NCBI RefSeq assembly: GCF_000969985.1
Contig: NZ_CP009526.1
Coordinates: 3,968,001-4,032,000, forward strand
From: Methanosarcina barkeri str. Wiesmoor
GTDB taxonomy: Archaea; Halobacteriota; Methanosarcinia; Methanosarcinales; Methanosarcinaceae
Length of the DNA stretch: 64,000 nucleotides
Direction of reading: 5' to 3'
Below, one piece after another: positions 1,095-8,649 of this stretch. Every line of letters starts with the position of its first letter. Position 1 is the first letter of the stretch. The notes beneath the pieces are model-generated. The model was not told the origin of the DNA. It saw nothing but the letters and a program-made list of their open reading frames with translations, and made no database searches. The translations under genes and the position numbers were made by a program.

Positions 1095-2072
1095 TCAAAA
1101 ATTATTTTCTGAAAAATCCATTAACGTGAGCTGCTTCGAACGGGAAAGTTTTGCCTGCATGGGTTTCATGCAGTCTCCAGACAAATGGTATCTTTCCATA
1201 AGAGAGCTGAGTATTCCATAAAGTTTAGCCTTATAAGCTATATCAACTCCTCCTTTTGCATACAATTTGCGGTAAGGATCCGCAAGTTCGGGAAAGTTAA
1301 GTTCAAGGAAACCGAAGAAATGCTTTCTGGTTTCGCCCCTGAGGTTAAGAACACCAGGAAGAGCATATTCAACATTACATTCGGCTGCAAGAGACATAAT
1401 TTGCTCGAGATTCTGAGGATTATCGGTAAGAAAAGGAAGAATTGGCATCATATGGATTCCAGTAATAGCAGATGTGTTTTTAAAAGCCCGCAGAACTGAA
1501 AACCGCTTTTCAGGTGAAGAAGCAAGGGGTTCCAGTAGGGCACTTAATTTTTCATCCACCGTTGTAACCGTAACTGCGATATTTACAGATGTTAGCTCAG
1601 CAAGTTCTGAAAGAAGGTCATAGTCTCTAAGGATAAGGTCCGATTTTGTAGATATAGTGACCGGATTTCGGTATTTAATCATCAGCGTAAGAACCTCGCG
1701 CATCAACCTGTACTTTGCTTCTACAGGCTGATAACTATCGCAGACCCCGCCTATATTAATCACTTCCTTTTTCCAGCTTCGTGCTGCAAGCTGCTTTTCA
1801 AGAGCTTCCGCAACATTCGTTTTTACGTAAATCGTTTTAAAAAAGGCACATTTTTTATCCGCTACAGAGGAACAGATTTCTCTCCCGAATCCTGGATCTG
1901 TATAGGCAAACTTCTTCTTTTCTTCCAGATAGCTATGAGAGTACATTGCATAACAGTAATTACAACCGTGTTCACATCCCCTGTAAATATTCAAGTCCCA
2001 ATGAAATGGTAGATTACTGCTGGATTTATTTATCCGATTAAGAGCTTTTTTAACCTTGATTTCTTCGAACAT
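1095..2072 (-). CDS. Radical SAM protein, spore-photoproduct-lyase-like (SplB/COG1533) family
   Basis: The 325-residue protein carries the radical SAM cluster motif CEHGCNYC (Cys33, Cys37, Cys40), which binds a [4Fe-4S] cluster and S-adenosylmethionine. The [11 protein letters not shown] stretch and the later [14 protein letters not shown] stretch are typical of the SPL-like branch (COG1533), widespread in archaea and bacteria. Members are related to spore photoproduct lyase, but most have no proven substrate, so repair of DNA photoproducts should not be assumed. The ATG at 2072 is preceded by a weak purine-rich stretch. The downstream neighbour is convergent and the upstream neighbour is separated by a repeat-filled gap, so it is probably transcribed alone. 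Confidence 0.85.
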
Positions 2073-3418: not shown

Positions 3419-3437
3419 GTTAAATATATATTTTAAC
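3419..3437 (+). promoter_or_regulatory. TATA-like box just upstream of the radical SAM operon
   Basis: TTAAATATATATTTTAA lies at about 3419-3436, immediately before the ATG at 3438. Archaeal TATA boxes sit about 26 nt upstream of transcription start, so the transcript may begin inside the annotated 5' end. The GGGAGGA at 3442-3448 could then be a ribosome site for a later, unclear start. Confidence 0.4.
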
Positions 3438-4580
3438 ATGTGGGAGGAAGAATCGAAGAATCTGGAGACGTTAAGCTTGTTATCACCACCTCCGATACTG
3501 AAAGGGTACATGTACGGGGCACAGGAAGCCCATCAGGCACGGAACTCAAACAGGCTTTTAGCCATACGCCTTGAAACGAACAAATCCTGCAATCTTCGCT
3601 GTCGCTACTGCTATGCACAGAGTGGCGAAGACTCGGCAAAAATAGCCGATTTTAATAATCTCAAACGTATTATTTAGGAGGCAAAAGAACTCGGGATCAG
3701 GTCTGTGGTCGTAATTGGGGGAGGAGAGCCGACCCTGTACCCGAGTTTCAGGGACCTAATAGCTTATATTGATTCCCTGGGAATAATCCCGGTGATTTTT
3801 TCGAATACGGTTTTAATGACAGAAGAACTTGCAGAGTTCCTGTACAAACACAACGCCTCAGTAATGGGAAAGTTAGATTCCCTTAAGCCTGAGGTTCAGG
3901 ACTACCTAGCAGGAAGAGCAGGAGCCTCCGAAGATATCAGAAAGGGGCTTCGGAATCTTCTCAATGCAGGCTTTTCAAAACCTGCGAGACCTGGAGAACT
4001 TCGTCTGGGAGTTTCTTTCGTCAGTAACAAAATGAATCTGGAAGAAATTGAAGAGATCTGGCATTTCTGCAGGAAAAACAATATTTTCCCCAATATGGAA
4101 ATTCTAACGCCTACAGGCAGGGCAAATGACGAACTTGAGGATAAGCTACTAACGGCTGACGAGATAAAGGAATATAAATTAAAACTGCTGGAAATCGACC
4201 GGAAATATTATGGTTACGACTGGCTGCCCTACACACCGATTACCGCTAGTGGATGCCTTCAGCACCTCTACAGCCTGTATATCAATATAGACGGAAATAT
4301 CCGGCCCTGTGCACCTACAAAGCTGGACGAACATCCTGCGCTTAGAGTTGACGGGGAATATCCCTATAACGTAAATAAAATGAGCCTTCGGGAAATTTAT
4401 AATTCCGATCTTTTCACATATGTTCGAAACATCGATAAAATGCTCGAGGGAAGGTGCAGAAACTGTGAACATAATGAAGAGTGCATAGGCTGCCGGGGAT
4501 ATGCATACAGCGTAGGTGTAAAACATGGCATAGACCCTCTTAAAGCCCTCAGGATGGAGTGCCAGCAGTGCTTCAAGTAA
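3438..4580 (+). CDS. Radical SAM/SPASM protein with an in-frame UAG codon (possible pyrrolysine)
   Basis: Two open segments (3438-3677 and 3678-4580) lie in the same frame and are separated only by a TAG at 3675-3677. Reading through gives 380 residues. The N-terminal half has the radical SAM motif CNLRCRYC (Cys51, Cys55, Cys58) and, after the UAG at codon 80, the GGGEPTLYP motif. The C-terminus is a SPASM/twitch-like cysteine region (SGC, RPC, CRNC, EECIGC) binding auxiliary Fe-S clusters. The UAG falls in a helix between KRII and EAKELG, where relatives usually carry an ordinary polar residue. In Methanosarcina UAG can be decoded as pyrrolysine, so this may be a full-length enzyme. A plain nonsense mutation (for example from CAG or GAG) is the alternative. 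It is followed by an EgtD-like methyltransferase and an arginine-deiminase-fold protein on the same strand. The substrate is unknown. Confidence 0.75.
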
Positions 4581-4710: not shown

Positions 4711-5736
4711 TTGAACAGTACAGGAAGAGTGGAGTTTGGACAGGTTTCGGAAAATAAGGAAAAGATAGTAATTACCAGTAAGGAGGACGTAGAAGAAAGA
4801 CTCTGTCAATGCCTGAAAAACCATGAACTACCTGATTACTTTCTATATATAGGCACTGGAGGAGCAAAAAACTGGCTGAGACTTGATGGGGCTGAGACGT
4901 TTTCTGTAGCCAGGCAGCTCAAAGCCCTTCTGGAAAAAAATCTAGACTCAATTGTGAGATTTATTCCAACAGGCATGAGTCTCGTAAGCGTGGGAGTGGG
5001 AAATGGGGAGAAGGAAAGAATTTTTCTCGAAGCACTAGTAAGGAAAAATCTAGCTGAAAACCCGGCCTCAGGAAAAGTGTCGATACGCTATTACCCTATC
5101 GATATAAACAGTGAATTTGTAGATATCGCTCTTGAAAAGGTCGATAACCTGCCTGTTGAAAAGAAGGGAATAGTTGGCTTTATAGAGGATACGACCGCTT
5201 TTAAAGAAAATTGGCGTCTCCCGATTCTTTTCTGCATATTAGGAAATACCTTTTGCAATTACGAGCCAGAGTTCATTCTTCAGCTTGTCCATGAAAACCT
5301 TGAGCAGGGAGACCTTTTTTTCTTTGATGCCAACCTGCTACCTACTGAAGGCACAGAGACACAATCTGCAAGGAAATCCGTACTGGGCACATATGCGTCA
5401 AGAGAGAATGCCCTCTTCAATATGTATCCCCTGCTTCAGTACGGAATGGCTCCTGAGGATTTTGATTTTGAACTCTTGCTTGCGCATGTAAACTCAAGGA
5501 TAGGGGGAGTATACAGAACCAAGAAGAGTCTGTATATCCTGAAGGATACTGAACTCAAAATCGGGACAGAAACCATAGGCTTAAGAGAAGGAGACGTCAT
5601 CCGTATGGGTTTTACTTATAAATATACATATGACCAGATTACAGCTTTTCTGGAAATTTGCGGATTTGAGATCCTCAAGGCTTTCCTGAGTGAAAAACGA
5701 GCAAACGTCATAATCCTTGCAAAAAAACGTATATGA
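4711..5736 (+). CDS. EgtD-like SAM-dependent methyltransferase (histidine-specific methyltransferase family)
   Basis: The 341-residue protein belongs to the EgtD/DUF2260-type family. It has the SAM-binding loop SVGVGNGEKERIF near residue 91, a YYPIDIN strand with acidic cofactor contact, and the LGNTFCNYEP segment typical of the family. EgtD trimethylates histidine in ergothioneine synthesis, but no other ergothioneine gene is visible here, so the acceptor is probably another amino acid or a modified residue. The start is TTG at 4711, preceded by GAGGAGAAGGTGA at 4694-4706. It lies 130 nt after the radical SAM gene and 32 nt before the deiminase-like gene, consistent with one operon. The family call is firm and the substrate is open. 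Confidence 0.8.
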   Translation: MNSTGRVEFGQVSENKEKIVITSKEDVEERLCQCLKNHELPDYFLYIGTGGAKNWLRLDGAETFSVARQLKALLEKNLDSIVRFIPTGMSLVSVGVGNGEKERIFLEALVRKNLAENPASGKVSIRYYPIDINSEFVDIALEKVDNLPVEKKGIVGFIEDTTAFKENWRLPILFCILGNTFCNYEPEFILQLVHENLEQGDLFFFDANLLPTEGTETQSARKSVLGTYASRENALFNMYPLLQYGMAPEDFDFELLLAHVNSRIGGVYRTKKSLYILKDTELKIGTETIGLREGDVIRMGFTYKYTYDQITAFLEICGFEILKAFLSEKRANVIILAKKRI

Positions 5737-5768: not shown

Positions 5769-6746
5769 ATGGGTTGCAAGATAAATGAACTTGATAGGGG
5801 AGAAAAAGAAAGATCAGGTATTGATTACGGGTGCGAGGAATTTGGAAGGCTGAAAAGCGTATTGATTCATACGCCTGGGGAAGAACTTTCTCTACTCAAC
5901 GACTCGAATTATAAACACTGGCTATACGATACGGTTCCTGAAATTTCCAGGTATATTAAAGAGCATAGAGACTATCAAGAGTTGCTGGAATCAAACGGAG
6001 TTAGAGTCTATGAACTTGAAGATTATGTTGACGAGAACACAGATCTAATTAAGAAGATGCCAAATCTAACTTTCTTGCATGATATTGCAGTTATCTCCGA
6101 AAAAGGGGCTATTCTCTCGAGAATGCGTCCGCCTGCCAGGGAGAAGGAAGAGGTTGTTGTAAAGGAAGCTCTAAATAATCTGGGAATTCCCATTCTCAGC
6201 GAATTCAATGGAGGACAAGGGTTTTTCGAAGGCTGCCTCCTGCTCTCAAAAGAAACAGTCTTTGTAGCTGATACGGAAAGACACACTTACCCATTTATAA
6301 GAGAATTTGTTTCAAACATTCTCAAAGAGTTCAGTGAAGTTATTTACGTCCGGGTTCCGAAAGCCAGGCGGTACATGCACCCTGATACCGTCTTCAACAG
6401 GATAAGGGAAGACCTTGCCCTTACTTATCTACCTGCATTTGAGGAAAGCTGCCTGTTTACGGAAGATTCCAGAGAAAAAATAGATTTTAAAGCTTTCATG
6501 AGCGAGAAAGGAATGGAAATTATTTCTGTTTCGGATTCCGAGCAAAGCCGCCTGGCCTGTTCTTTTGTTCCTTTAGAGAGCGGAACTATTTTTCACTACG
6601 ATACCGCACTTGATCAGAAAACCAGGAAAGAACTTGAAAATGAAGGTATTGAGATTATTTCTTTTCACCCGGATGCCCTACTTGCAGGAGGAGGAAGTCT
6701 GCGCTGCCATACTCTGAGGCTTTGTAGAAGGAAAATTAAAAATTAA
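5769..6746 (+). CDS. Arginine deiminase / amidinotransferase-fold protein
   Basis: The 325-residue protein has the signatures of the guanidino-modifying enzyme superfamily. Residues HDIAVIS match the early Asp-containing loop, GGQGFFEGC the Glu-containing turn, RYMHPDTVFNRI the His/Asp catalytic motif, and the C-terminal GGGSLRCHTLRL the nucleophilic cysteine. These enzymes hydrolyse or transfer the guanidino group of arginine or methylated arginines (arginine deiminase, DDAH, amidinotransferases). It follows the methyltransferase gene by 32 nt and is probably co-transcribed with it and the radical SAM gene. The set suggests modification of an arginine-like or peptide substrate, which is inference. 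No ornithine carbamoyltransferase or carbamate kinase lies nearby, so a classical arginine deiminase pathway is not indicated. Confidence 0.75.
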   Translation: MGCKINELDRGEKERSGIDYGCEEFGRLKSVLIHTPGEELSLLNDSNYKHWLYDTVPEISRYIKEHRDYQELLESNGVRVYELEDYVDENTDLIKKMPNLTFLHDIAVISEKGAILSRMRPPAREKEEVVVKEALNNLGIPILSEFNGGQGFFEGCLLLSKETVFVADTERHTYPFIREFVSNILKEFSEVIYVRVPKARRYMHPDTVFNRIREDLALTYLPAFEESCLFTEDSREKIDFKAFMSEKGMEIISVSDSEQSRLACSFVPLESGTIFHYDTALDQKTRKELENEGIEIISFHPDALLAGGGSLRCHTLRLCRRKIKN

Positions 6747-8265: not shown

Positions 8266-8649
8266 TTATACGGTTTGTGTAGCGTTGTCATCTGCAGAGT
8301 CGTTGTCTTCAACTGTAACATTGTCATCTGCAGAATCATTGTCTTCAACGGTCATATTGTCATCTGCAGAGTCGTTGTCTTCAACGGTCATATCGTCTGC
8401 AGAGTCGTTGTCTTCAACGGTCATATTGTCAGTAGCAAAGTCGTCATCTGTAATGTTGTCGGCTGGAACTTCTGCGGCTACATCTTCGGTCTGAGTTCCA
8501 TTTTCGTCTGCTACTGGAGCCTGGTCAGTCACTTCTTCTTGAGATCCATCTTCTGCTGTTGTGTCAGCATTCTTGTCAGAACAACCAGCTGCAAAGACAA
8601 CAGCACTAATGACAAGGAGCATTGCCATAATCTTTAACATTTTTTTCAT
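8266..8649 (-). CDS. Acidic repeat-containing lipoprotein
   Basis: The 127-residue protein starts with a lipoprotein signal peptide ending in the lipobox FAAGC (Cys23). The mature chain is almost entirely Asp, Glu, Asn, Thr and Val, with no aromatic residues. The C-terminal half is four copies of a 12-residue unit (VEDNDSADDNMT and variants) encoded by 36-bp DNA repeats, so copy number may vary between strains. A highly acidic flexible surface tether or cation-binding coat is plausible, but no function is known. The open frames on the opposite strand are by-products of the repeats. The gene stands alone with its own terminator. Confidence 0.8.
   Translation of the reverse strand: MKKMLKIMAMLLVISAVVFAAGCSDKNADTTAEDGSQEEVTDQAPVADENGTQTEDVAAEVPADNITDDDFATDNMTVEDNDSADDMTVEDNDSADDNMTVEDNDSADDNVTVEDNDSADDNATQTV

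Follow-up and report, generated by a model that had tools for sequence, protein, structure and literature searches.

An in-frame UAG kept across Methanosarcina species in a radical SAM/SPASM gene, a candidate near-neutral pyrrolysine codon

The methylamine methyltransferases MtmB, MtbB and MttB have an in-frame UAG that is read through to full-length protein, and their pyrrolysine is catalytic and conserved. Recoded stops also occur in radical SAM proteins, where, as in the selenoproteins ArsS and TrsS, the codon is UGA and the residue is selenocysteine. Outside methylamine metabolism, pyrrolysine has been described in Thg1, the Methanosarcina tRNA-His guanylyltransferase, and is ascribed to neutral evolution in the title of Heinemann et al. 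2009, as cited in PMC8211752 and PMC2933860; the neutral idea is given for other candidates in PMC3639795. Here we consider a radical SAM/SPASM gene in a 64,000-nucleotide stretch of the Methanosarcina barkeri str. Wiesmoor genome (the window), in which a UAG at codon 80 may be read in the same way.

The gene resembles each of these systems in part. It shares with MtmB, MtbB and MttB an in-frame UAG in Methanosarcina and a full-length product, here a predicted one, but its codon-80 position is variable and probably surface-exposed, rather than catalytic and conserved. As in Thg1, the candidate pyrrolysine codon lies in an enzyme outside methylamine metabolism; unlike Thg1, the gene belongs to another protein family, has its TAG in five genomes and two clades with reversion to CAG, and is a prediction from sequence. 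With ArsS and TrsS it has in common a radical SAM protein with a recoded stop, although this is UAG and not UGA, and Cys is absent from position 80 in the relatives, unlike the selenoprotein case. The combination of a radical SAM core and SPASM domain is that of SkfB and other maturases, but these are distant; the best PDB sequence match is 6efn (SkfB; E 2.7e-12). In the literature searched, with most subscription journals outside it, a radical SAM enzyme is nowhere described as a pyrrolysine candidate. In the pyrrolysine survey PMC3639795, supplementary lists aside, the term "radical" is absent, and in PMC1242214 and PMC1914089, with the same proviso, a radical SAM protein or Fe-S oxidoreductase appears only as a selenoprotein.

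If the TAG at 3675-3677 is taken as a residue, positions 3438-4580 of the plus strand form a single open frame of 380 codons, with that one in-frame TAG and a TAA end; without readthrough, the same DNA would give a 79-aa product (3438-3677) and a 291-aa ORF from GTG 3705. The Pfam Radical_SAM domain (PF04055, E 3.7e-21, residues 49-207) crosses the TAG codon, and the SPASM auxiliary-cluster domain (PF13186, E 2.4e-7) covers residues 273-344 (4254-4469, plus strand). The CxxxCxxC 4Fe-4S motif (C51, C55 and C58; 3588-3611) lies 5′ of the TAG, and the GGGEP motif (residues 94-98; 3717-3731) and SPASM domain lie 3′ of it, as the original prediction had placed the codon relative to the two motifs. 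Its description of two same-frame parts of one radical SAM/SPASM protein also agrees with the 380-codon frame and with the lack of any junction indel against same-length orthologs. The product has both the radical SAM motif and domain and the C-terminal cysteine-rich SPASM domain that mark this family, with invariant SPASM-region cysteines at C273, C291, C340, C343, C349 and C352, and it reaches none of the NCBIfam equivalog cut-offs. The number 80 is counted from ATG 3438, an uncertain start: an AT-rich, TATA-like stretch (3420-3436) stops two bases before this ATG, and translation may therefore start farther 3′, at TTG 3477 or ATG 3510.

Among 31 Methanosarcina genomes, including that of the window (G000, 4.9 Mb), 22 have a full-length ortholog, all of equal length and without an indel at the junction. 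Codon 80 is TAG in five of these, in independent assemblies (G000, G029, G024, G019 and G001), CAG (Gln) in four (G014, G021, G017 and G002), TTG (Leu) in one (G010) and TCN (Ser) in 12, as it is in the outgroup G031. Two of the TAG assemblies are near complete and three are drafts, so that sequencing error is not credible. Alignment of orthologs at this codon had been set beforehand as a check, and its outcome was split, with 5 TAG against 17 sense codons. A sense codon in all close relatives would have marked an ordinary nonsense mutation; instead, five genomes have the TAG in common, and so it is no nonsense mutation of a single genome.

A gene tree computed without codon 80 and a second tree from rpoB and pylS concur in nesting the CAG lineages inside TAG lineages. 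In both, G024 (TAG) is the outgroup to two sister groups, one holding G014 (CAG) with G000 and G029 (TAG), the other G017, G002 and G021 (all CAG). The remaining TAG genomes, G019 and G001, group in a clade of their own, and both TAG clades lie among lineages with Ser codons. Ancestral codon reconstruction places TAG at the base of the window-genome clade with a posterior of 0.98-1.0 across settings; this reconstruction scores TAG as a sense codon, and its result is consistent with decoding without being independent proof of it. On this reconstruction, the history is one TCG-to-TAG change followed by two TAG-to-CAG changes, plus a second (or deeper) origin of TAG. By parsimony, the alternative of a CAG ancestor costs only one extra step (4 changes against 3). 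Two bases separate TCG from CAG, with TAG or CCG (Pro) as the one-step intermediates, and a stem leading to a CAG ancestor would still pass through TAG or CCG. Proline is disfavoured in a helix.

Downstream of the TAG, the coding sequence has remained under constraint. Over the 300 codons past it, G000 and G029, both TAG, differ by 32 synonymous and 13 nonsynonymous changes (dN/dS 0.102), and G019 and G001, also both TAG, by 38 and 16 (dN/dS 0.103); both values fall inside the range for sense-codon pairs (0.05-0.22). The codons changed nonsynonymously number 12 in the first pair and 16 in the second, fewer than the minima of 15 and 21 in 5000 neutral simulations in which the number of substitutions was matched to that observed. 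Between the TAG and GTG 3705, the sole candidate for a restart close by, codons 81-88 specify identical amino acids in all TAG genomes, and no second stop or frameshift was found in the gene in any of the five. The strength of purifying selection and the unchanged codons 81-88 argue that the distal half is produced, most simply within one chain; it would thus appear to be still made and used in the TAG genomes.

Residue 80 falls in the helix after the cluster motif (residues 72-84 in an AlphaFold2 model of low confidence, mean pLDDT 56), at 149 degrees from the hydrophobic face, on a side that bears charged residues too. It is probably exposed at the surface, on the outward side of the first barrel helix, as judged chiefly from helix periodicity, the model being weak. 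The position takes Ser, Gln and Leu in relatives. Given this tolerance and the outer helix face, a catalytic role for pyrrolysine is unlikely, and near-neutral insertion is likely. The variable position 80 differs from the conserved active-site residue of catalytic pyrrolysine enzymes, and it matches the neutral, Thg1-like proteins, in which an ordinary residue is replaced at a tolerant position.

Both pylS and tRNA-Pyl(CUA) occur in each of the five TAG genomes. The window's genome also has an in-frame TAG in three mtmB copies and one mttB, the established pyrrolysine codon of these genes. The gene therefore has what is expected of UAG-pyrrolysine proteins, with tRNA-Pyl(CUA) and PylRS in the cell and, on either side of the UAG, both homology and coding constraint. 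No structured readthrough element was found 3′ of the codon-80 UAG (z -0.49); the need for one is debated. We also scanned a sample for internal stops, comprising 10 genomes at this locus and 4 genomes over an unrelated 200-kb region, with filters on length, coverage and support from several other genomes. All internal stops with multigenome support in the sampled regions were TAG, with no TAA and no TGA: codon 80, two sites in the adjacent methyltransferase gene, one in a neighbouring radical SAM gene and one in a transporter gene. Excluding the event in the discovery clade, these make about six independent TAG events and zero TAA or TGA; under a random-nonsense null, with a TAG share of 0.33-0.44, the chance of such a result is roughly 0.001-0.008 for the sampled regions. 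With the shared TAG, the purifying selection downstream and the pyl genes, this pattern lends weight to the candidate pyrrolysine reading first proposed for the gene.

In G022, TAG replaces the conserved Trp100 of the neighbouring radical SAM gene, which is Rv2578c/PA0069-like (L153:14430, L206; ortholog of window 1095-2072, minus strand), the rest of the frame being intact. Apparent TGA stops in this neighbouring gene in G017 and G007 were actually C-terminal ends. The transporter site is at about codon 48 of a ~500-codon gene of G029 (C2, about 1156228; L167), in the 200-kb comparison region far from the radical SAM locus; three relatives have Gln there, and the name MATE-like was read from the sequence by eye.

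We consider it quite probable that the gene encodes a full-length enzyme in which the codon-80 UAG is decoded as pyrrolysine at a tolerant surface helix position, a near-neutral use of UAG as a sense codon. From the open frame, the distribution of the TAG, the trees, the constraint and the pyl genes, we infer that the residue is pyrrolysine, that the efficiency of decoding is sufficient and that the position is neutral. On this reading, the gene would give one radical SAM/SPASM enzyme of ~380 residues, with tRNA-Pyl(CUA) reading the UAG and pyrrolysine placed where the first barrel helix faces outward. Before the window-genome clade diversified, TCG (Ser) would have become TAG in one step, and the TAG would have outlasted several speciation events because UAG is decoded in these cells in any case. 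It would later have changed twice to CAG (Gln), while TCG changed again to TAG in another clade. UAG may in this way act as a near-neutral sense codon and as a mutational bridge that links Ser codons to Gln codons.

An ordinary nonsense mutation, leaving a young pseudogene in the TAG strains, might be suspected, given that several Methanosarcina genomes have lost the cluster or have broken copies of it, so that some lineages can dispense with it. However, the TAG was present before several species diverged, and the 300 codons past it have since been under strong purifying selection; the five TAG copies have acquired no further stop or frameshift, some lineages have gone back to CAG with an intact gene, and truly broken copies, whether of the cluster or of control genes, show TAA or TGA and frameshifts. 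Decay of the gene is very unlikely on these grounds. Still less do we favour a split gene, in which a stub and a C-terminal protein begun at GTG 3705 join in trans. That GTG does open a long ORF and both parts are conserved, but codons 81-88, untranslated on such a model, keep their amino acids in all TAG genomes, and the chain would be broken within the first barrel helix, after the cluster cysteines and before GGGEP. A GGAGG overlapping the TAG has no start codon at proper spacing and is absent in G019 and G001.

As to the inserted residue, the sequence data would allow pyrrolysine or a canonical amino acid. Gln CAG and Ser TCG are each one base from UAG and both residues are tolerated at position 80, as might be expected if UAG were read mainly as a canonical amino acid through near-cognate suppression. 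The TAG genomes have, however, a dedicated tRNA-Pyl with a CUA anticodon and PylRS, and the bias toward TAG over TAA and TGA fits that anticodon, whereas near-cognate suppression is expected at TGA and TAA too; we regard it as highly improbable. One can also envision a selected use, in which the UAGs of the operon tie its expression to pyrrolysine supply, that is, to growth on methylamines. Two adjacent genes have three TAG sites, which arose about five times in 721 codons, compared with none in 1440 control codons. This would fit, but the TAG sites occupy variable positions and show reversion to sense codons, the operon is without TAG in most genomes, and the control set is two genes, with the codon-80 site picked in advance. 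On balance, selection for such a link seems unlikely. That the operon is a UAG hot spot, with UAG gating translation according to nutrient supply outside methylamine metabolism, is likewise doubtful from the sequences compared.

The adjacent genes bear on this last question. Downstream of the radical SAM/SPASM gene are a Methyltransf_33 gene, for an EgtD-like SAM methyltransferase (4711-5736, plus strand), and an arginine-deiminase-like gene (5769-6746, plus strand), both assigned by Pfam, and this order is repeated in relatives. Methyltransferase orthologs have TAGs of their own: TAG replaces CAG at codon 11 in the non-sister genomes G022 (L113) and G023 (L111), and AAG at codon 24 in G019 (L116) and G001 (L118). 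Each TAG-bearing ortholog has a single in-frame TAG and is otherwise intact; both sites are in the variable N-terminal part, and past the codon-24 site dN/dS between G019 and G001 is 0.27. The arginine-deiminase-like gene has an internal TAG in no genome. In two control genes of the same genus (565 and 875 codons) no TAG was found; the stops there were TGA or TAA, with one copy visibly broken by several of them. Several genomes lack the cluster or have it in broken form, with fragments or frameshifts at L025 (G004), L024 (G012), L129/L133 (G016) and L130/L132 (G020), consistent with an accessory function. The cluster may have more UAGs than is usual, owing to weak constraint or to conditional expression.

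Near-neutral decoding of the codon-80 UAG would add the radical SAM enzyme to the neutral pyrrolysine candidates, as a member with a clearer history. Nothing suggests a special function for pyrrolysine in this enzyme, where the residue is probably interchangeable with Ser, Gln or Leu. It would offer a case, ordered by phylogeny, in which a stop codon serves as a sense codon in a gene that does not encode a methyltransferase, arising from serine, kept across species and passing to glutamine. It also supports the view that UAG in Methanosarcina is a low-cost, ambiguous sense codon that is not confined to special contexts. Genes interrupted by UAG are easily misannotated, as pseudogenes or as two genes. 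The natural TAG, CAG and TCG variants of one enzyme provide test material for the effect of pyrrolysine on a protein that can do without it.

Elsewhere in the window, positions 8266-8649 (minus strand) encode a small protein, predicted to be secreted and lipoprotein-like, that carries acidic repeats in tandem (DNxTVEDNDSADD); the opposite strand is also open there.
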